Of a DNA stretch of 64,000 nucleotides, positions 28,611-42,771 are shown one piece after another. A program made the translations under genes and the position numbers. A model generated the notes under the pieces. It made no database searches. It saw only the letters and a program-made list of their open reading frames with translations, and was not told the DNA's origin. Each line of letters begins with the position of its first letter. Position 1 is the stretch's first letter. Source of the DNA: Cavenderia fasciculata (Eukaryota; Evosea; Eumycetozoa; Acytosteliales; Cavenderiaceae); assembly GCF_000203815.1 (NCBI RefSeq), contig NW_004457734.1, positions 193,233 through 257,232 of the forward strand, given 5' to 3'.

Positions 28611-31215
28611 TTACTTCTTGATTTTCGAGGTATAAGTGGTTGAAGTTTGTTCACCTTCATCCTCTTCTGTAACCATGAAACTTTTGTCTTTTTCATCATC
28701 CAAGCAAGATGGGTTTCTCTTTTGGGGTTGTGGTGCTGTATTTATATTTGGTCGGTTTAGTTGAAGGAGTTGAGAAAAAATAGGACCAAAGAAACTTTTT
28801 GCTCAGATCCAACAATTATTGTGCTGTATGGAATAATATCGATTGAGTCTTGATGGAATCTTTTTGTTGTGCATACAAATAAAATGGGGATTGTGTCGCT
28901 GTGGATGAATGGCCATTCCTTAATAGCTTGTTTCGACTTGGTGATCGAATCTGTCACCTTATCCCATTCACTTTTGACAAGGGCGTTTGATACCTCACCA
29001 CTAGTATCGTTCGAGGAAAATTTTGATTGACCACAAATCAAAATGTATTCATCTTTAATCATTCCCACCGATTTAATGTAGTTAAACCAATCAAATTGAG
29101 CACCAGCATTAATATAGGTGGAAAAACAATTTCCTTTACAAATATCATTAAACTGGGCCATTGACTCTTTTGTTTGAGTGGTTGGGTATCTATAAGAGAG
29201 AGTCGATACGGAGGGACGGGAATCTGGTGGGGAGGGTTTTGAAATAGTGATTTTCTTTGATTTCAAATCTTGAGATGAAAATATGGAATCTGAACCAAAT
29301 AGTTGTTCAAGTGTAACTGTGGTTATTCCTAAATACAAGAACATTGCAATTCTTGCTTGCATAACAAAAGCACAATATCTTTCCCAGTGCTGCCAAAAAG
29401 CTTTGGTCTTGATTTCCTGCAAAAAATCTTGTAGGAAGAGGAAGCTGGGGTGGACAATGGTGAGGGCACTCCAGCTAATAAAAATGAGAGGAAATGACAA
29501 GGTTGTGGTGACTTCATTCAAATACACTTTTACGATAAATCCACTATGCTCCAATTCTTCAAAAGTGAGGTCCGTTCCATTAGGTTTTCTCTGGGTCCAA
29601 TTGTCGATAGAGAGTGTGGTGATGGAATAGGCCACGAGTGTCATAACCAACTCTCTATTTAAATTTGAAATAGGATATATTTGTGATACGAGATAATATT
29701 TGTTCAATCTTCAGGTTTGATATTGTTGTTGGTGTCAAATCCGAGTTGGATATTTCTTCAATTAAACTATCACAAGAAATATTCAATTGGTCTAGCCCAA
29801 CCTCCCATCAACATCTGTGCATAGATAATAAATGGATCCTGAAAGCTGATGATTTGTGGTTTGGATGACATTATTTTTGACACATCATCAGCTGAAAAGA
29901 GTGGTAATTTGAGTGAAATGCATCAGTGGGAAGATTCTTGGGAGATTGTTTCTTGAAGAGATGACAGTAATGTCCCACCAAATAGAGCAACCACAAAAAT
30001 GCCATCTGTTGATCTTGTTTGGGCTGCTCCTACTGCCATTACAATATCTCTGAGATGTTTTCTTCTGACCTTGATGTCTTTTGATGTCACAGAAGAATCT
30101 TGGAGTAACTTTTGAAATTCGTCTATGGCCAATAATATTGTCAGAGATTCCTTTTCTTCCACTTCTTTGATGAGAGCCAATACAAGAAGTAAAGGCAATT
30201 CTTTATCCCAAGTATCAAACCATTGTTGGATAAAAAGTACCAAAGGGTCTCTGATGCGGAAGTAGTTGTGAAGGATTCTTAATGAGAATCCTGATACAAT
30301 GTCTCTAAACTCTAATTTACTAAGGGGTTCCCCATTTCCATAAGTCAAATATAAGTAAACACTGTCTGCTGATGCCTCAGGCACACTTTTACTAATGATA
30401 CGAGGAAACTCTAAAAGAAATCGAGTTTTTCCTGTGCCTGGGGCTCCAGCCACTACCATAATTGGGTGTACTTTTTGATCATCCTCTTGATTTTTGTGAC
30501 TCTTCCATCTATCGCGAACTGTAGCCTTCAATAATTTAGAAGATTGTTTTCTGCCAACAAAAGGAAAATCCTTTCCAAAACCAGAAATAATTTTATCTTT
30601 TTCAAAAGCAACCTAAACAAAAAAAAAAAAAAAAAAAAAGTCAGCTTTTGTTGTTGAATTCTTTATAGTGGTTGAATTACCTTTGGTTGTATTTTATATT
30701 GTTTTATCCATTCCTTTAATGATAGAAGGTTCAAAGCTAAAAGATCTTGAAAAAAGAATTATTATTAATAAAAAATAAAAATAAATCAAAAAAAGGAGAG
30801 CGTTTTAACCACAAAAGAGAAAGAATTGGTTGAACAATGAAGAAATAAAAATGATTTGATAGATGGAGTAATAAGACTTACTTTGAGGTAATTCTACATG
30901 AGATGATTCTAATTTTAAAATTAGATCGAGTGTCGCACCATCATCAAAATTAGTCACAACTGACTTATCTTCCAAGAGAGATCCTTCGAAAGAGAGACCA
31001 AACGAATCTTGGGATCGACCTTTTAGATCACCAAACTTATTGAACTTGAGAAGGAAACTTTTTACATTGTCAACATATATTTTTGTATTTTCATTAAATT
31101 CAAACTGACTATTAGAGTCTTTGTATCTAATCCAAATTGTTTTGCTACCTATCAAATAGAAAAAGAAAATCAATAATCCGTTTTCATGATGAATGTTGTT
31201 TATATATGTACTCAT
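28611..31215 (-). pseudogene. Crinkler (CR) family gene: ubiquitin-like header, P-loop NTPase, REase-like C-end; broken
   Basis: The 5' exon (31148-30882) encodes a ubiquitin-like fold (KTIWIRYKD ... GATLDLILKL). It starts from the ATG at 31215, either through a 63-nt intron (31211-31149) or read straight through, since that segment is also in frame. A small exon (30745-30681) follows, then one from 30612 with Walker A GAPGTGKT (30424-30447) and a Walker B-like ILLAIDEFQ. The 3' part has an REase-like core with a Q-x-K pattern (ICGQSKF, near 29015-29045) and an acidic tail ending at 28611. This order is that of CR effector/toxin proteins. Breaks: an in-frame TGA at 29923-29925, frame changes within about 29700-29780, and another at an A-run near 28796-28800. 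Unrecognised introns or sequence errors could explain some of these. The ubiquitin-like and NTPase parts look well preserved. Confidence 0.72.
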
Positions 31216-31544
31216 TTTAATTATATATAAAACAAGAAATGACTCTCTTTAATGATAAAGTAATAAATAATGTATAAGTTCTACTAGATGAATATTTAAA
31301 AAAAGTTGAGACAACTTGGTAATTTGAGCTTTTATTTTAAAATGAGGAAAAAAGTGTGTCAAATTTTTTGATTTTTTTTTGAAAGAATTTTTTGGAAAGA
31401 AATGTTTTTTTGAATTAATTATAAGGTCTTGGTATAATTTCTATATGATTTAACTTACAAGATATTTGCGCAATTAGAGTAAATAACTGCGACTTCCCAT
31501 ATTTATACAGGGTAACCCTATTAAAGAAAACTAGGATACATACC
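31216..31544 (-). other. Fanzor 3' flank; candidate guide-RNA (omega RNA) region
   Basis: 329 bp between the Fanzor stop codon and the CR start. The first 130 bp after the stop are less AT-rich and contain a GGGTTACCC palindrome near 31510. The rest is AT-rich with T runs. TnpB and Fanzor genes usually encode their guide RNA at or past the 3' end of the gene, so this is where it would be expected. No conserved scaffold could be confirmed by eye. Confidence 0.3.
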
Positions 31545-31942
31545 CTACCTGCCAAGGTGTAAGACATCAGCGGGTAAGGAACGGTATATCCAAGGGCGAT
31601 AACCTGCTTTGGTCTGGTGTAATATTCCCAAAAGGAGAATATTTTTTGCAGCACTCGTATCTCTGTTGAAGAACCTGTTGCAGACTGGACAAAAAAGCCA
31701 TTTCCATTGAGTTTGAAATGGCATATCCAATCCCGGGTACTTTGACTTCCAGAGAGCTTTTATTTGAGTGTAACAAAGTGACTTACCAAACTCATAGTCG
31801 TGGGTCGGAGCAGAGTTGTTTGTAAACTTGTTCCCATCCTCTTGACTATGGCCAATATTTTCTTGAATATTATTACTATTAGTTTTTTTTTGCTTTTCAA
31901 AATTAAACTTTATGATCAAGTTTATAATTTTGTCCTTGGTTA

Positions 31943-32037
<95 letters not shown>

Positions 32038-35000
32038 TTTTTTTTCTTTTTAATTATATTAGTAATTTTTTTTTTTTTTCTCTTTTTACCTGTTTTTTTT
32101 TGATTTTCCTTTGACTCTTCATCATCTTCTTCTTCTTCTTCATCATCTTCATCATCTTCATCTTCTTCATTTTCTTTATCATTGTAATCGATTTTGTTCT
32201 CATTACAAAAGACTATCAACTCTTTTTTAGTCTTTTGGTTTAGAGAGTAAAGTGACTCCAATGGCAAAGTATGAGAAGGTGAACCCTTTTCGAGGGTTAT
32301 GAATGTTTCCAGAGAACTATTGATATCTTTTGCCAAATCACCATTGGCGCACTGACAATCGTACTTTTTGCAAGCACATTTGCCACATTTTTCATCTTTT
32401 TTAAAGTTGCATTCCCAATGTACACCATTATCTGAAATAGGGGGGGTCGCAACAACAAGGGTCTTTTCAAGAGATTCAGGTAACTGTTTGTTTTCAATCT
32501 TTTGATGTTTAATTTTGTCTTTAAACATTTCGTTGTTGGTAAGATGAATGCTAGCGGCACATGCATTATGAATCTTGGAAAAAAAATATTATTAATGAAT
32601 GGTTTCATTTGTGAGTGATGAGAATAAACACATACTTTGGAGGTATTAAATTCATTTACCATAAGAGCCTTGTATCCCATATTCTTCCAAAGACGGTAAA
32701 AAGACTTTGGACCAAGACCAGTTGGTCCACCACCCCGAGAGGAACGGTAAAAATCAGAACCACCAATACCTATAGAGGATTAGAAAAAAAAAGATTAATA
32801 AAATAAATATATATAAATATGATAAATGACATACAAATAACAGTTTTGTTTTTGGGTATTGTTGTGGGTGGCACAAATCGCTTTGCATAAGCATAGCGGG
32901 CACGCTGATTGTCAATGTGTTTATTCTTGTCCATGGTCTGGAACGTATAGGAGGTGACCACCTGGACATAGAGACGACATTGATGTTGGCATGTAACCCT
33001 TTCATACTCGATTCGCTTCATTACCGATTCTAGACTGAACAAAGTTTCTAAAAGATAAAAAAAATAAAAAGTTTAGTTTAACAATAATACAATGATTTTA
33101 AAAAGTATTACACATACCAAAGGTGTTGTATTCTGGCAACCCTCTTTCAAATGATTTCAAGGGCATTTTGTACTTTTCTATCATCGCACAAAGACGGCTA
33201 GTCTTCATCAGGTTGTAGAGCGTTGCTACAGAAACCACTCTGGCGCGGTTCAGAGAGTCGACGATCGTGTTTTTTGACCTTCCAGGATCAATGCCAACAA
33301 AAAGATATTTGGAACTGATGGCTTGTCGAATTGATCTCCATTGATACCGACGTTTTTTACACATACCAGGATGGTAAAAATTTCTCTTGGCCCTTCTATT
33401 TTCATATAATGGTACTCCATCATCATCTTGAATATTTTTTATAAAGGATGAGTCAGGTACAGATGGGGCCGTAGGTGTTGATCCAGATGGGGCAGGTACA
33501 GATGAGTCAGGTACAGATGGGGCTGGTACAGATGAGTCAGGTACAGATGGGGCTGGTACAGATGGAGCCGTAGGTAGTTTTTCGGAGTATGATTTTAACA
33601 CTTTTACCAATATTTTTAATTTGGTGGTGAACCAATCGTCCTGTATAGAAATTTGATTGTCTCTAGCCCAAATTAAGAGTTCCAACTTGCTTTTGTTTGG
33701 GTCAAAAGATTTATCAGTTGATACTTCACACTCGCCGAGGGTTGCTTTCCATAAAGCCAATTTTATCGAATACGGATCTTCTTCTGCTTGAACAGTGATG
33801 TCGTAGGCCTTTGCTTGTTCCAATAGTGCTGCTTGATCAAATTTGGTAAACATGTTAAGTGATTTACCATTAACGAGACCCAATTTTTTTGTATTGTTCA
33901 GACCAGTCGAGGTTGATGTGAGAGGTATGCCAACAGATGATGAAGTTGTTGTGAGACCAGATGACGACGAGGAAGATGATGGCTCCGACGAGGAAGATAC
34001 AGCAGAGGTGGTTGATGCAAATGTTTTAATTTTATCAAACATTGACACTTTTGGTTTGAGCTCGTAAACTGAATGAGCAATCGTAATGTATGCAGCGATT
34101 AAATGAGTTGCCAACATTACTGATGGGTGATGAGCCATTGCGATGAGTCTTTTCCCTTTGACTTTAAATGTATCACATATGTTGTCATAGGAGTTTTGAC
34201 TATAATCAACAATTTCATAGTCTTTCTTATTCACCTCGTAAGCAGCTTTGGCAGCTTTACATGCAACATGACCACAAATGATGATGACTTTAGAAGTTGT
34301 TGATTCAAATTGCTTCTTTAGTTCTTCTGCCATTTCTTTTTCCTTTGGTTCGTCTTCAAAGCCACCTGCAGAAGAGTCGCGAACGCTGGTAAATGCGTCA
34401 CGAATACGAAACGACATCGAGGGATCGGATGTTGCATTGATTACATTGGCCAAGTTTCGCATGGTTGGGGCAATTCCTGAACGGTCAGAGTTGAGAGCAA
34501 TCGAAGTGGTGTTGAGTGGCTCGTGAAGAAATATTTCGACATGTGGTGAATCTGTCGAGATATATTCACGCAATATGCGATCTACTTGTGAGATGGCTGG
34601 CTTCACAGGTGGACAAGAGTCAGAGGAATGGACGAGTTTTTCCGATGCAGCTTTTTTGAGCGATGGGTCTACATTGTACAAGTTGGAAAAGTTACCACAC
34701 GTTTCTTTCCTTTTTTCATGTTCGGAAAGAATGGGTATCTGAATGTTACAAAGAGGCGTTGGGCATTGAATTGGCAAACATTCGCTATTGAGAGTGTGGG
34801 ACACAAGACAGTGGGCACAAGTGATTTTTCTAATCTCTTTGGTGACACTTGGTTTCAATCCAACTTGTTGTGCAATATAACAGGGAAAATGGGGGTGATT
34901 AGGTGACATCTTAGCCTTGTCTGTTTCCACTACAGTGCATTTCAGAGGATAAGAAATAATATCAGTGGAGGGAGTGGAATCCTCTGACATGGGTACATGT

Positions 35001-37404
35001 TCATTTGGTTCTTCGAGATTCTTTTGTTTTTTCCAAGGAATACATGGGGTTTCGAGATCAACCGATGGGCTGAAACCACGTTTCGACGTATTTTGAATAT
35101 CGATTAGCATTTTGTCAACAGCAACTATATAAAGAAAAATTGAATATTAGTAAACCAGAGAATAAATATATACTTTAATATTGTTAAATTACCTTTTTCT
35201 CGAAATGAAACAGGGCCGGGGGTGTTTTTCGTTATCATCATCACCCTCTGGTTGATTCTAATTGAAACGTTTTGAAGGTAAATGTAACCGATCTTATCCT
35301 TTACATAATCGTTAAAGTTGATATGGACAGTGGGGGGATTCTTCTTATCAAAAACTGGATCGGGTTTTGGCAGAGGAGAGACCAGGTAATCCACCAACAA
35401 GGATTTGTCGACATGACCAGATGTGTAGTATTGAAAAAGTCCAGACTGTGGCAAAGGTTTTGGCCTCCATATCGGTTGGTTTGTCAGTTTACTGATTGAA
35501 ATGTTTTTTGCTTCTAGCTGAACTTTCAATTCTTTTTTTAGTAATGGCAACGATGTTGAGTACCAACCGTCTTTGATTTCAATGTTGTTATCACGCAACC
35601 ATGTTAAAATCTCCATCTTGTTGGGTGACCGATTATAATCAAAATCTACAATATTCAATTCTGGACGATTTTTAAGCATATCTTTCCATAATACCAATTT
35701 AACCAATGCTATTTTATCTTCTTCTTCTTCCTTTTTTGGTGTATCGGTATCAAAGTTGATCCCTCGAGCTTTTAATTGTTGACAAAGGTCATCCCAAACC
35801 AATCCTTTGAAGTTGTGAAATGTATCAGATTTTTCACCCAATATTCTCACATTCGATTTTGACGACCCTCTTGACGATACAACAGGCGAGGGGGATGGTG
35901 GTGATACAACAGGCGATGGGGATGGTGGTGATAGATCAGGCGAGGGAGATTTTGATAAATCAATGAGATGATCGATTTCCTTGTCAAAAAATGAATATCT
36001 GCTTAATGGATAGCCACCACTCAACGGATGGCCAAGTACATTTTCCAGGTTGGGAAAGATGGTCTGGAGATATTTGTTAATCTTGTCCTTGGAAGTGAGC
36101 GTAATGGTTCTATCAATGCCAGAGTTTTTAAGGATGTTTACAAACAATTGTAACGAAAAAGGAATCAGAGTACTATTAAATCTAAAAGTTATATATATTA
36201 GTTTACAATACAAAAAAATATATATCTATTTTTTTTTTTAAAAAGTTTATAACATACCCATATTGAGGAACCAGGCATTTGATTCTTATTTCTTTGGTTC
36301 TTATCCTCTCGAAATCGGAGGTTTGAAGATTCTCCAATTTCTCCTTGTGATTGGATGCATTGGATTCTTTGGGGAATTCGTATCCAATAGTTTTCCAAAA
36401 ATCAATCAAAGATTCGAATTGTTTTGTTGTCAATTTTGACAAATCCACCTTTTCTTTGTCGAGACTATAGAGAATAAAAAAAAATGAATTAATTAGTGTG
36501 TGAAGTATAATGAATATATAGATAAAAAATTAATTACCAAATGACATTTTCGAGATTGAATAATTTCAATCGATTCAATTGATCTTTATCCAAGCTGGAC
36601 CAGCTGCTCTTTGGGGAGACAGAGCTATCGATTAATTCCTTCAAACGTTTGGACGTTTCAGATAACATCCTCTCATTGACTTGGGGTAAACCATCATTTG
36701 TTGGAATGATACCCGCATCCAAGCGCAATGCTGTCTCAGCCAATTCTTTAATGGTAATAATTTTACCATCAATGTTGATTTTGCTAAAATCGGCCATTTC
36801 ATTTTCAAGGTCATAATTCTTTTTTGACTTCTTTCCACGAGCCTGCTTCTTTTCCCTCTCTTGTTCCTTTTCTCTTTCTTCGAGGTTCTTTTTTCCTTTT
36901 GCAATACATCTCAAGTTGTGGTCTAATAGAATAAATAAAAGAAGAACAGAGGGTTAAAAAAAACTTTCTTTTTTAATAATAATTGATAGAGATCCTATCT
37001 TAGATATTTACCTTTGAGTTGTTGAGAGTCACAAATTAGTTTGATAGCCTCGATGGCCTCACCGATATCATTACCACCACCATTCAACTTGTCCAGTATT
37101 CCTTGCAAGAGTTCACATACTTCATATGAAAGGAGTAGATAGATTCTACGATCGTGTATATAATCTTTGAGACTGGTTAAATGGCGTTTGAACGTTTCCA
37201 CTGTTTCCGCCAAAAATTGAGTTTCAATGGAATTTGAAAACTCTGTCAAATATGAATGGCATGTTCCGATTGGAGCCAAATCTGAATCTTTGAGGGCGTT
37301 GCGGATCTTTTGATTTTCCGTCAATCTCTGGACATTTAGTTTAGAGAATGTTTTAGAAACCATTTCTAATATAGCTTTAGCCTTTTCCTCGTCTTTACTT
37401 GATA

Positions 37405-37451
<47 letters not shown>

Positions 37452-38029
37452 TAAAACAAGATATCTATGAGTATATCATTGTATAGTCACAACGTACATA
37501 TTTCTTTGGTAAAGAACTACTACTTCGTTCTTCCACTTGGGTTACTTTACATAACACGGCGTCAATTAATGCTTTTCCAATTGACAGTGGTCCACTCAAA
37601 CATTTATCTATGTCTTTCATCATTTCATCTTTTTCTATCTTGTTCAATCCAGTGGTATCATAGTACTTGGTGAGTGCATTTTTGAAGTCCTGCTTGTCTC
37701 CACTAAATACTAAAAATGGTAAATATAGAAAAAGAGAGAAAAAAATAAATTAATTAATATCCCTTTCAACCGTTGGGGTGATGTTGATACACATGCATAC
37801 CATTGGAGTTGCAAATGATTGTAGCGTGTGATAGTTGTGCCGTGATGCGACAGGTGGAGTAATACTGGCGGGTGTATTGGCCTAGATGTTTCATAAATGT
37901 ACTCTGGGTTTTATTCCATCTTTTTCCCATGACCGAATCGAGTGGGTTTTGTGTCGTCCGTGTTAGTGTATACGTTGGATATGGAAGAGGACCCTTTTCG
38001 AATGGATTGTCTTGCACTTTGGTGGCCAT
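31545..38029 (-). CDS. Giant Fanzor (eukaryotic TnpB-like RuvC nuclease) with SAP-like and UDG-like regions
   Basis: Ten exons (38029-37801, 37709-37498, 37405-37012, 36922-36538, 36464-36258, 36181-35193, 35124-33118, 33047-32835, 32769-32636, 32573-31545) join without a stop into 1,932 codons. RuvC-I is FVGIDPGRSK (D1418, 33287-33289). The block IGGSDFYRSSRGGGP then leads to MVNEFNTSK, whose Glu (E1585, 32651-32653) sits where Fanzors carry their rearranged catalytic Glu. CPVCNRFFNRDTSAAKNI gives a zinc-ribbon half and RuvC-III (D1895). All three catalytic acids are present. A Cys-rich insert (WECNFKKDEKCGKCACKK) and a poly-Asn run lie between them. Upstream are two copies of a SAP-like module (about 606-696 and 1234-1318), a Cys/His cluster (908-948), a UDG-like stretch (about 1000-1160) and Pro/Ser repeats (1324-1366). 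Residues 1-600 are mostly helical and not recognised. Most Fanzors are far shorter. The start is the first ATG in frame after a possible acceptor. Confidence 0.8.
31944..32036 (-). repeat. ATT/AAT microsatellite inside the Fanzor coding sequence
   Basis: 31 uninterrupted ATT units, read on the minus strand as AAT (Asn). It lies between the Cys-rich insert and the final zinc-ribbon/RuvC-III block, so it is a poly-Asn linker within the nuclease half. Basic Lys runs come before it in the protein and acidic Glu/Asp runs come before those. Confidence 0.95.
33442..33575 (-). repeat. Tandem Pro/Ser/Ala repeat in the Fanzor linker
   Basis: About 30-bp DNA units encode repeated PAPSVPDSSV between the second SAP-like module and RuvC-I (residues about 1324-1366). 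The near-identical units suggest recent slippage expansion. Shorter SPSPVVSPP repeats occur in the preceding linker at 35860-35950. Confidence 0.85.
37408..37446. repeat. 39-nt A homopolymer in Fanzor intron 2
   Basis: 39 consecutive A on the + strand, so a poly-T tract directly before the AG acceptor of exon 3 on the coding strand. It serves as an extreme pyrimidine tract. Its exact length in the assembly is probably unreliable. Confidence 0.9.
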
Positions 38030-38418
38030 GGTGGTAACGATCTTGAGAGGGGACCCCAGTGGTGGCGCTACAAGAGACTGCTCTGAAGATAACTTGAGTA
38101 AATAGTAAAATGAGATACTGTAATGTAATTAAACTTTGATAAAATAAAATAGATAAAGGGATGGAGATAAATATTGAGAGAAGTTAAAAAATAATAATGA
38201 AATGAAGAGCCCAAATTTGTGTGATTTAAATAGAGATCGCATTGAAGATCAAAAAAAAAAAATTAATTTAAAAAATATCTTTCTTGGAAACAATAAACCT
38301 TCACCGTAACGATCGATGCTTATTTATAGATTTATTTATATATTGATATTTATGAATGATCAATAAATTTTATCAATATTATAGATATATTTTTATCTTT
38401 ATTTTAAGCATATAAATC
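38030..38418. other. Divergent intergenic region between Fanzor and a small orphan gene
   Basis: The part next to the Fanzor start is GC-richer and open in the Fanzor frame upstream to about 38120, ending at a possible splice acceptor (TTACAG), so an additional 5' exon is possible. The part near 38345-38385 is AT-rich with an inverted repeat (TATTGATA/TATCAATA). No terminal repeats matching the other side of the gene were found. Confidence 0.45.
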
Positions 38419-38945
38419 ATGAGTACAGCAACCCAAACTATCACTGCATCTCCAGCAGCAGTAGCAACAACAACAACAATCACAACACCACCAACAGGAG
38501 CATTCTTTCAACCATTCATTGGCAATCGCGTTAAACCAACATACCCATTAAGACAAGTCCAACGCATTAGAAAACAAATATCATCTACGTTAAATAGACA
38601 TACAGGTGGCGACCAAGAACTACAATCAGAGGTTCTAAGAAGTTTCAGCATATCTAAACATGGAAGAGGTATCAAGATGTTGCTCGATCCCAAAGGAGAA
38701 AAGATCTACAACGATGGTACAGTTTTTATGGCTACAAGAGATTATAGTTGTCTCAACATCATTAGAAAGATGCACAAGGAAGCAAAAGATGGGAAAAAGA
38801 ATCATTTTACAAAAACACAGTAAGTTGCATTTATCACATCAAATACCTCTTCTTTCAACCTCCCATATAAATTAGTATGGATGTTCAAACCACACTACTG
38901 AGTGTCTCATCAAGTAATACAGGATTGTGTATATATTATATTTAA
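38419..38945 (+). CDS. Small hypothetical protein
   Basis: ATG at 38419 (preceded by AAATC) opens a 134-codon frame ending at 38823. The last codons overlap a good donor (GTAAGT at 38820). Splicing to an acceptor at 38874-38875 replaces the last residue and gives a C-terminus running to a TAA at 38943-38945. I cannot choose between the two ends. The N-terminus is a Ser/Thr/Ala run. The core contains RQVQRIRKQISSTLNRH and GRGIKMLLDPKGEKIYNDG, which is basic and probably folded. No family is recognised. It is transcribed away from the Fanzor gene, 389 bp from its start. Confidence 0.6.
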
Positions 38946-40221
38946 AATTACGAGTTCATTTATACTAATTCCTTTCTTTAAAAGAATATTATCATCGGTA
39001 TCACCTTTTCATACTGCTTCACAACTAAGAGATTTTGGTTTCAAAATGATTTGAATGTGTATTGAATATATTTTTGTTATTTAATACCTATTTCAATTAT
39101 CGAGCCAATGCCAAATTTGAAATGATAGGTATGTCAATTACTACAAGTTAAATATTTTATAGTTAATACGATATACTCACCAATTCATTCTTTAAAGATA
39201 GTTTGTTGTTGTAATATTAGTTCAACTATTATCAAAAGGTTACAGTGAACCTTTTCAAACCTATTTATATATGGAACTCCACATTGATTCGAGTCAATTA
39301 TTATTCGTTGATTTCAATGATCTAGTGGTCCAATATATATACATATTTTTTTATAATAGACTGTATATACAGGTATGGATTATTATTAATATTAATTTTA
39401 TTTTTGTTTCTTCCAACTTTACACATTTTTAACTTTTTTTTTGCCATTATAGATTATAGATATGATATCGATCAAGAGTAATGGTAGCTCTATTGATTCT
39501 ACTCATATTTCCTCTTTTTATTTATCCCTTACAGCTTTATAGTTCAATATTTAATCAAACAATACATCCATATATGGTACCTATCCATAAATGATAAAGT
39601 TTAAGTATCATGTAGACTTCAACATAGTAGTAGTATATACTACAACCACCACTCAATTACTAATACATATTTTTAACATAGGTCATCCTTACTATTTTTC
39701 TATAGAACCGATTGATCTTCTTCTTAATCAACCGCTGATCTATTAAAGTTATGTATATATTCATAACATAAATTAATTTCAAAACTAACAATTCCAATCT
39801 ATCAGATATCTGTTTAATGAGACTAGTCAACAAATCGGTTCATACTATAGCTGATAGTCTTGTATTATAGCAACAAAGGTGGTTGTTTGGTCATCAACTC
39901 TACCCACCTGAATTAGAATACAAAGTTAAGTAAATTCATCACAATACAACTATCAAACCCTCAACTAATCATATTCATGCCATATTATACTTTAAATATA
40001 GATAATGAAAAGATCTATCGATTGGTAAAAGAATAATTAAAAATAAAGAAGACCATAGAGAGAAATAAGTTTTACAAATAAATAGATTCTGAGGCGGTAC
40101 TCCCAACCAAAAATTTTCAAAACCCCCAAAGAAAATAAATATTCATTTTATTAATTTTTTTTTTTAATTTGTTTTTAATATAGAATTCTTTTTTTGGTGT
40201 GTTGTATGTAACTTTTATTCA
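38946..40221. other. Large intergenic region
   Basis: 1.3 kb, AT-rich, no frame with coding character on either strand. It contains the foldback at 39705-39841 and a T tract just before the ankyrin gene (40152-40164). Short ATATAT segments could be promoter elements. Confidence 0.5.
39705..39841. repeat. Imperfect inverted repeat
   Basis: GAACCGATT (39705-39713) is perfectly complementary to AATCGGTTC (39833-39841). Further in, CTGATCTATT (39735-39744) partly pairs with AATCTATCAG (39796-39805). The loop itself holds GTTATG/CATAAC. The pairing is weaker than in the hairpins at 8079 and 44329. Confidence 0.4.
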
Positions 40222-42657
40222 ATGAACAACAACAATAACGAATCAACAATCATAATATTTAGAGTGATTAAATCTAAAGTATTATTAAATCTTATATTAT
40301 CATTCATACCAATAATCAATCAACTATCATTGCTATACTCTCAAAAATATCAGTTTCTATTATATAAATCTATATCTTTATTAAAGTACAGTGATCATGT
40401 TGGAGCTTGTTACAAGACTAAAAGTAGTCATCATTACGATGACGATCAAAAATACATAGAACTAAAAAGATTGCAACAACAAAGATCATTTGTTTTGTTT
40501 AGAGATAAACTATTGAATGATCGACGGTTTGTAGTCTATTTCAGAGCAATGCCAGTAATACTGAGGAATTGTAAAGATGTCACATTGTTACAAAGACTGC
40601 ATCAACAGTATCCTCACTATTTTAATTTGCCACTCACTAAACCACCACCTGAAAAGTCAAGTAGTGGTAGTAGAAGTAATAGATCAGTTCCAAGAGTGGG
40701 AACAGCGTCAACTACAACATTGGGTGATTGTATTGGATCAAAGAGTTGGGTCATTGACAATGTGGCTGCAAGTGGTAGTTTGGCATGTTTGGTCTATACA
40801 ATTGAAAGTATTGGTATTGAACCTACTACCATGACACTCGAGATGGCTTGCGAGTATGGTCAATTATCAATACTCGGCTTTATTCAAGAAAACTATCCAT
40901 CGTTGCCAATTGGTAGAGCATTTGAATTGGCCACCTACAATGCACATCCCTCCATTGTACAATTTCTATTAGAGAATAAAACAGACGAGTCATTCAGCTC
41001 TGTTTCTCTTGTCAATGCTGCAAGAAATCAAAACAAAGAGAATAATCTAAAGATTTGTACACTGCTCTTTGAATATTCTAAAACGAGACACGGTGGTAGT
41101 GAAGAAGGAGATAGATTTGGTTTGGTTGATAATTCAGTCATGTCTGGGTCATTGGAGATTGTTAAGTTGTTTCATAGTCATTATGGTCATTCAAAGAATG
41201 CACTTGACATGGCTGCCGAACTAGGGTATTTGGATATAGTTATGTATCTCGATCAAGTTGGAGCACCTGCATCTACGAGTGCAATGGATTATAGTGCAAA
41301 GAATGGACACTTGGATGTAGTAAAATACCTAAAAGAACATAGAAAGGAAGGGTGTTCACCAGACATATTGAAAAAGACATTGGTTGGTGGATCTATTGAT
41401 GTTTTTAAATACCTTTATTTTAACGTACTTGGTGGTGAAGGAGGTAGTGTTGGGACGGTTGATTTAGCATCGTATATTAGTAATGTCACAAGTGGAAACA
41501 TTCCACTCTTACAATTTATAAGAGAGTGTTGTATGTTGACACAACCACCACCCACCAACTTGTTGTCACAAGTAATCACTCGTGGACAAGGCGATCGTTT
41601 TGCCATGGCAAAATACCTCATCGAGAGTGAGATGGTGGTTCAGCCAGATCATCCAGATTATGTCTACGAACAATCATTAATCATGCAAGGATTGGTTAGA
41701 CGTGGTCCACTATCACTATTTCTCTATCTAGTAGTAGATACGTTTAAAATCGACTTGACCAACAAACCATTGTCAGAGGATATTTGGGAGCAACTAAAAA
41801 GAGAGTATGATGGTCAAGTACTGGTTTATATGCTCCAACAAAACAAGCATCATTTAGAGGTGGTGCATTACAACGATATTCTTATCAACGGTAATCCCCC
41901 CTACTTGCAAGTACTAGAGTATATTTGGGAGGTGTGTCCAGATGCATACTCATACTCGCCGTATACAAGTCGACTTGCCAACCGAGTGTGCACACTCGAT
42001 CAAAAACAACAACGTATCGATATTTTCAAATTCCTCCATCGCAATCAACTTGTCAGTCAGTTCACCCTACCAAAACTAATTTCCCAAACGCTTCAACATG
42101 ATGGTGATTTTGTCTGTGCAATTCTATTACACTCTTTTATCGAAGAGGAGGAGGAGGAGGAGGATAAGAGTAGTAGAATAGTGGTAGAAAAGTTATTTGA
42201 AGATGCTGCCAATAAGGGGTCACTTGAAATGATACGATTTCTGGTCAACCGGTACCCACAACATATAATCTTTGAATATAAAAGACACGATGCGTTGTGT
42301 CTAGCTGCGAAGCATGGACACTTTGAAATTGTCGATTATTTGATCAACAACCAAATTCACCCTCCTCTTGACATACTGTCTCGGTCACTATTACAAGATT
42401 CAAATATCATTGATTGTGCAGCACAATCCAACAAATTAGAGATACTTGCCCATGTTGTTGGAAAATTTCCGAGTATCCTACCAACACACCGTTCATTAAT
42501 TGGGACCAGTCTTGATGTTCCACAATACCTAGCCAATCACTATAACCTAGATGACCTAATCCTATCATGTAAAGGTGAATCTAATTATTTTATTTTATTA
42601 AGAAATGCAAAAAATGATTTAATTAATCAAAATCAAAATAATCAAAATAACAATCAA

Positions 42658-42688
<31 letters not shown>

Positions 42689-42771
42689 GGAATAGTGATA
42701 ACATACCAACATCAACATCAAAATCTTTTGGACTCTTAAACATATTTAAAAGTGTATTTAAGAAATATTAG
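40222..42771 (+). CDS. Ankyrin-family protein, full length, paralogue of the gene at position 1
   Basis: One exon of 849 codons from an ATG at 40222. The N-terminal segment (FRVIKSKVLLNLILSFIPII) and FVVYFRAMPVILRNCKDV are shared with the partial gene at 1-863. Degenerate ankyrin-like units follow, for example ALDMAAELGYLDIVMYLDQ and AMDYSAKNGHLDVVKYLKEH. A Glu-rich run (EEEEEEED) sits near residue 645, and the C-terminus has an Asn/Gln-rich stretch and a short hydrophobic end (GLLNIFKSVFKKY). The 5' poly-Asn after the start codon is typical of dictyostelids. Function unknown. No introns, in contrast to the ankyrin gene at 21571-24043. Confidence 0.85.

Follow-up and report, generated by a model that had tools for sequence, protein, structure and literature searches.

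Three Fanzor1 families of Sola2 type, DFa-1, DFa-2 and DFa-3, were described in Dictyostelium (Cavenderia) fasciculata by Bao and Jurka in 2013 (PMC3627910). As given in the text of that paper, DFa families have terminal inverted repeats (TIRs) of 12-13 bp and AWWT duplications, the DFa-2 transposase is 888 aa long and the transposases of DFa-1 and DFa-3 are mostly deleted; the lengths and any added domains of the DFa Fanzor proteins were not found in this text, and its supplementary sequences lie outside the present comparison. It was the only paper found in our search for Fanzor with Dictyostelium or with Sola2, most subscription papers lying outside that search. A DPG motif combined with a glutamate at an alternative position has been described as the molecular fingerprint of Fanzors (PMC10711439). 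The solved Fanzor1 proteins, SpuFz1, GtFz1 and PpFz1, carry three RuvC acids, and most Fanzor1 proteins are 600-700 aa long (PMC11423790), some reaching about 800 aa (PMC10711439). RNA-guided cutting as an aid to element persistence has been discussed for TnpB and considered possible for Fanzors as well (PMC10432273).

The window analysed here, a stretch of 64,000 nucleotides from C. fasciculata, contains on its minus strand (31545-38029) a giant Fanzor1-type gene, delineated by a splice model and by conservation in a sister family. Its ten exons lie at 38029-37801, 37709-37498, 37405-37012, 36922-36538, 36464-36258, 36181-35193, 35124-33118, 33047-32835, 32769-32636 and 32573-31545, all on the minus strand. 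Starting with the ATG at 38029, they join into 1,932 codons uninterrupted by a stop, and the nine introns of 62-92 bp are all GT-AG, the splice junctions having been picked by reading the sequence. The earlier note had announced ten exons, about 1,932 codons without a stop and a size several times that usual for TnpB and well above that of most Fanzors. This gene model is borne out, with coordinates and motifs correct, and so is the size: the 1,932-2,040 aa of the window and sister families represent about three times the usual length of Fanzor1 proteins (600-700 aa for most, about 800 aa for some). If the single chain is true, this would be by far the largest Fanzor among those met in the literature available to us, though its size has perhaps already been published.

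The three acids of the Fanzor signature, also announced in that note, are all in place. They correspond to D1418 of RuvC-I in GIDPG (G1416-I-D1418-P-G; codon 33287-33289, minus strand), E1585 at the alternative RuvC-II position (N1584-E1585-F-N-T-S-K; codon 32651-32653, minus strand) and D1895 of RuvC-III in NRD (N1893-R-D1895; codon 31659-31661, minus strand), the first two positions being worked out from the exon table. Indeed, with respect to the definition of Fanzor1 in PMC10711439, DPG is found at RuvC-I, the alternative glutamate stands six residues ahead of the zinc finger (E1585-FNTSKI-H1592, the His being counted as the first ligand) and the third acid lies in RD past the zinc finger. 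The C4 finger of Fanzor1 comes after [TS][TS]xx; here we read TS-KI-HNAC ... CPVC, with the right spacing in the first pair and with His in place of its first Cys, which distinguishes the window protein from the solved Fanzor1 proteins. What had been taken for a zinc-ribbon half is thus a finger with both pairs, H1592-x2-C1595 and C1885-x2-C1888, separated by 289 residues. The same His, as well as the three acids, is found in the window protein, in the NCBI model DFA_09740 (P0001) and in the protein of a DFa-2-like element. Since it is common to all three, the His is probably functional. The insertion between the two pairs contains a long Asn-repeat tract (31944-32040), which differs by one codon between two near-identical copies of the gene.

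The identification of the window protein as a Fanzor is supported by these motifs, and profile searches gave graded results. PF07282 matched all three core sequences, with a best E of 9.8e-9; taken alone, the window core scored under the curated cut-off (E 0.0097), DFA_09740 (P0001) gave 0.017 and the window exon-10 frame by itself had no match up to E 10. None of the solved Fanzor structures was matched by sequence, the best hits being LaTranC chains (E 0.055 and 0.057). Pairwise comparison shows homology between the window core and the DFa-2-like Fanzor (C14:2921-2934k): scores of 96 for RuvC I-II, 61 for exon 9 and 121 for the C-terminus (shuffle means 31.4, 21.1 and 24.2, respectively) were each reached by 0 of 1,000 shuffles, while RuvC-I with the linker alone was weaker (score 55, reached by 1 of 1,000). 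Furthermore, the last three introns have the same place and phase in both genes, with the DFa-2-like junctions chosen by eye. Whole-protein alignment of the two by hhalign was sensible at the C-terminus (probability 60) and in RuvC (probability 2) but nowhere else. The DFa-2-like Fanzor (C14:2919800-2926000) is large too: it extends for about 1,028 aa beyond the start of its first mapped exon, and further open frame lies upstream. An AlphaFold model of DFA_09740 (P0001), built with the window exons as alignment rows, places three strands around the DPG aspartate (P0001 696-719) in a block with a pLDDT of only 41-45; with a mean pLDDT of 39.6 and 995 of 1,194 residues below 50, it is too poor to judge whether the three acids meet in a RuvC fold.

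The relevant unit at this locus is an 8.8-kb transposon (31326-40144), of which the giant Fanzor gene is a passenger. Its ends, identified by eye, read ATTT-GAGCTTTTATTTT ... AAAATAAATATTC-ATTT and form an imperfect 13-bp inverted repeat. The left repeat (31326-31338) matches the right one (40132-40144) at 10 of 13 positions, compared with 11 of 13 in the sister copy B, counted by eye; similarity to a copy on C18 begins at 31319, and the right end at about 40144 is common to many copies. The flanking ATTT (31322-31325 on the left and, from the comparison of copies, 40145-40148 on the right) is presumed to be a 4-bp target-site duplication. Both ends were printed for seven copies, only the left one for A and D and only the right one for M and O. 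ATTT was present at both ends in six of the seven (the window copy, B, C, G, I and J) and ahead of GARC in the nine copies with a left end printed; copy F has AATT instead at its right flank, and the right end of copy M differs from the others. Since it is identical at nearly every end, ATTT could be part of the element rather than a duplication. Short TIRs and a 4-bp AT-rich duplication correspond to the Sola2 type, a name which for the window element rests on the text of PMC3627910.

Upstream of the Fanzor gene, on the plus strand, lies the remnant of a divergent gene (38419-40002), which in relatives contains the transposase. It has an internal deletion of about 754 bp at 39472/39473 with respect to the C18 copy, from which the region past 40002 also differs. 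A relative at C14:2926000 keeps open stretches of 411 and 385 aa in the transposase region; a Pfam search of the two matched no family, and no solution joined the transposase exons of this locus in a single frame. The DFa-2-like copy at C14:2926000-2935999 is not an intact transposase source, since its first transposase exon (2022-2440 of that stretch) has an in-frame stop. Species, TIR length, AWWT duplications and a transposase region are common to the window element and the DFa-1/2/3 families, as is a mostly deleted transposase in two of the three; judging from the description in PMC3627910, DFa-1 or DFa-3 is very probably the family to which the window element belongs.

Relatives of exon 7 were found at 12 or more loci of the 31.0-Mb assembly (21 contigs): the window, one C18 copy and ten sister-family loci with 50-55% identity. 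At this exon, the C18 copy (C18:718000-732000) and the window share an identical 682-aa frame. Over the whole gene, the differences between the two copies amount to two substitutions, a single Asn codon in frame and a poly-T change of 4 bases; the C18 copy has an open frame of 1,931 codons. The C18 copy is without its last ~110 bases, including the right terminal repeat, so that only its left end is recognisable.

The ten exons could also be read as two adjacent genes, with an unrelated transposon protein encoded by exons 1-6 and the Fanzor by exons 7-10. The NCBI model DFA_09740 (1,194 aa, one copy) is in line with such an organization, since it covers only exons 7-10, preceded by a short head of unrelated sequence and lacking part of exon 7; exons 1-6, moreover, had no match up to E 10 among the 7999 candidates scored. 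However, splicing of sister copy B (C21:2302000-2317000) yields a protein of 2,040 aa from ten exons, and its nine introns match those of the window gene in place and phase, including intron 6, a match that is partly by construction, as its junctions were chosen by alignment to the window protein and junction 6 by hand. No start codon is conserved at the head of exon 7, the Met nearby (aa 811) being Val in B, and if exon 6 is extended into the intron, the frame ends at a stop in both copies, with unlike tails. In addition, a module of about 110 aa occurs on both sides of the exon 6/7 junction. Between the window gene and B, amino acid identity is 44% in exons 1-6 and 55% in exons 7-10, with pN/pS of 0.51 (777 codons) and 0.46 (1,051 codons), respectively, at synonymous sites near saturation (pS 0.74 and 0.64); by segment, pN/pS ranges from 0.25 (aa 1840-1932, the last 92 residues) to 0.69 (aa 1610-1680). 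By this comparison, both halves look coding and constrained. Since both have been under past constraint, one giant protein from ten exons is well supported, presumably made from a single transcript across all of them, and the continuous protein proposed in the earlier note is most probably real. We therefore regard two separate genes as unlikely.

A decayed or inactive Fanzor, persisting only as transposon baggage, is a less likely reading with some observations in its favour: His replaces the first zinc-finger Cys, and of the seven sister copies examined among the ten loci, four (B, C, G and J) are open throughout, the frame of I and D is lost, codon 246 being the first stop, and F is only partial. 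Among the sister copies the few changes are nearly unconstrained, with pooled pN/pS of 0.81 and 0.78 that are not independent values. On the other hand, all three acids are kept in the window, DFA_09740 (P0001) and DFa-2-like proteins, the unusual His is shared by the three, and pN/pS between the window gene and B is 0.40 in the RuvC part and lowest in the last 92 residues. Another reading, a domesticated host enzyme that is no longer mobile, takes up the domestication considered in the earlier note and could draw on the open frame of 1,932 codons; it is not supported, and we find it highly improbable in view of the element ends with ATTT on both sides, the near-identical second copy and the ten sister-family loci. 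Rather, the giant Fanzor1-type protein is likely to be encoded as a passenger by a C. fasciculata DNA transposon of Sola2 type that is non-autonomous, and to act by the mechanism proposed below.

The long region ahead of RuvC had been described as a 1,400-residue N-terminal extension with folded regions of its own. Conserved and partly folded regions are present, and the giant size stands; not all of these residues are surplus, however, since the first catalytic residue of SpuFz1 (D383, E541, D606) is itself at D383 (PMC11423790). Relative to the SpuFz1 positions given there, the window protein has about 1,035 extra residues ahead of the first acid and 245 more from the second acid to the third; the D-to-E spacing is 158 in SpuFz1 versus 167 here, and the E-to-D spacing 65 versus 310. 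The intron ahead of 'GF' in the window gene agrees in phase with an intron of the DFa-2-like gene. From the start of the 'GF' exon to the RuvC aspartate motif there are 940 residues in the window protein and about 238 in the DFa-2-like protein. Removal of a first module (~590-700) and of an exon-7 block (~806-1400) would leave about 220-240 residues, so the window protein may have arisen from two insertions into a Fanzor rather than from a single N-terminal extension, in a comparison where the N-lobes themselves align at chance level. Indeed, against the DFa-2-like protein, the score of 40 for window exon 6 was equalled by 62 of 400 shuffles, and copy B exon 6 scored 52 (10 of 400) in a Ser/Thr-rich stretch; exons 1-5 of the window and of B were equalled by 121 and 149 of 400 shuffles and the pre-RuvC part of window exon 7 by 12 of 400. 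Ungapped comparison of 20-40 residues from the common 'GF' ranked midway among all windows.

Several distinct regions can be delineated in this part of the protein, all on the minus strand. Exons 1-6 (35193-38029, aa 1-806, defined by the splice model) belong to no known family that we found and may hold the WED/REC lobe. Window exon 6 matched exon 7 in all seven sister copies searched (E 1.6e-6 to 3.9e-8), which delimits a duplicated module of about 110 aa, with a first copy at 35515-35841 (aa ~590-698) and a second at 33587-33895 (aa ~1216-1318). By eye, we take this module to resemble SAP. The second copy is less constrained (aa 1230-1330, pN/pS 0.64), and one VIA row to Rho factor falls in this part. 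Window and sister sequences define a Cys-rich segment at 34676-34888 (aa ~885-955), with C908-x2-C911 and further Cys. It is followed by a conserved alpha/beta domain at 34025-34537 (aa 1002-1172), seen in the between-family comparison and in the AlphaFold model, with 66% identity between families and a pN/pS of 0.32.

The fold of the alpha/beta domain is uncertain. Compared for aa 1002-1172 alone, SMUG1-type uracil-DNA glycosylases are one weak match among others. Carbonic anhydrase was rejected as the enzyme: PF00484 stayed under the curated cut-off (E 0.0047 with the exon-7 frame and 0.0004 with the cut segment) and did not match the sister sequence, sister copy B has Gln in place of the His of 'GHxxC', and the best solved chain by profile, also a carbonic anhydrase, gave E 0.41 with no stretch passing. 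A PADLOC match to PD-Lambda-5_A (E 0.00061) sits in a Ser-rich stretch and was rejected as low complexity. Protein searches for homologues, which needed shared exact words and were limited in length, returned only the C. fasciculata proteins DFA_09740 and DFA_06309. With two peptide patterns for each region, viral contigs gave 45 stretches for the core and 166 for the alpha/beta domain, and bacterial/archaeal contigs gave 39 for the latter, none of which was confirmed. Since this giant architecture has been maintained in two diverged families, the additional domains probably benefit the element.

The mechanism that we propose starts from features read directly, namely the gene model by sequence, the element ends, the copy number, the conservation of both halves and the fingerprint motifs. 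Since the transposase gene of the element itself is mostly deleted, a Sola2-type transposase supplied in trans would most likely move it. The giant Fanzor, with a predicted activity of RNA-guided DNA cleavage, would be guided by an RNA produced at the edge of the element itself and cut an unoccupied or sister site, the repair of which would keep or copy the element. The duplicated SAP-like segments, the Cys-rich segment and the conserved alpha/beta domain could tether or regulate the enzyme on DNA. A more speculative and rather improbable extension is that this transposon-borne chain carries its own accessory modules, namely duplicated DNA-binding-like segments together with a base-recognition domain like that of uracil-DNA glycosylases, placed between the guide-binding lobe and RuvC. 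RNA-guided cutting would then be coupled, during transposition, to the recognition or processing of a base that is modified or unpaired. As for an omega RNA at the element edge, the minus strand of 31319-31560 folds no better than shuffles (z -0.40), and an Rfam search of 29000-42000 gave no gathering-level match. With two nearly identical genome copies and possible accessory functions fused to the nuclease, the locus offers a handle on the role of Fanzors for eukaryotic transposons.

On one side of the element, its neighbour at 29923-31248 (minus strand) contains an AAA-type NTPase segment (PF13401, E 5.5e-6). The short N-terminal frame ahead of this segment, which matched no family up to E 0.1, presumably resembles a Crinkler-type header. 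On the other side, the element directly adjoins an ankyrin-repeat gene on the plus strand (40168-42771; Ank_2, E 2.7e-17), and it may thus have landed in the upstream region of that gene.
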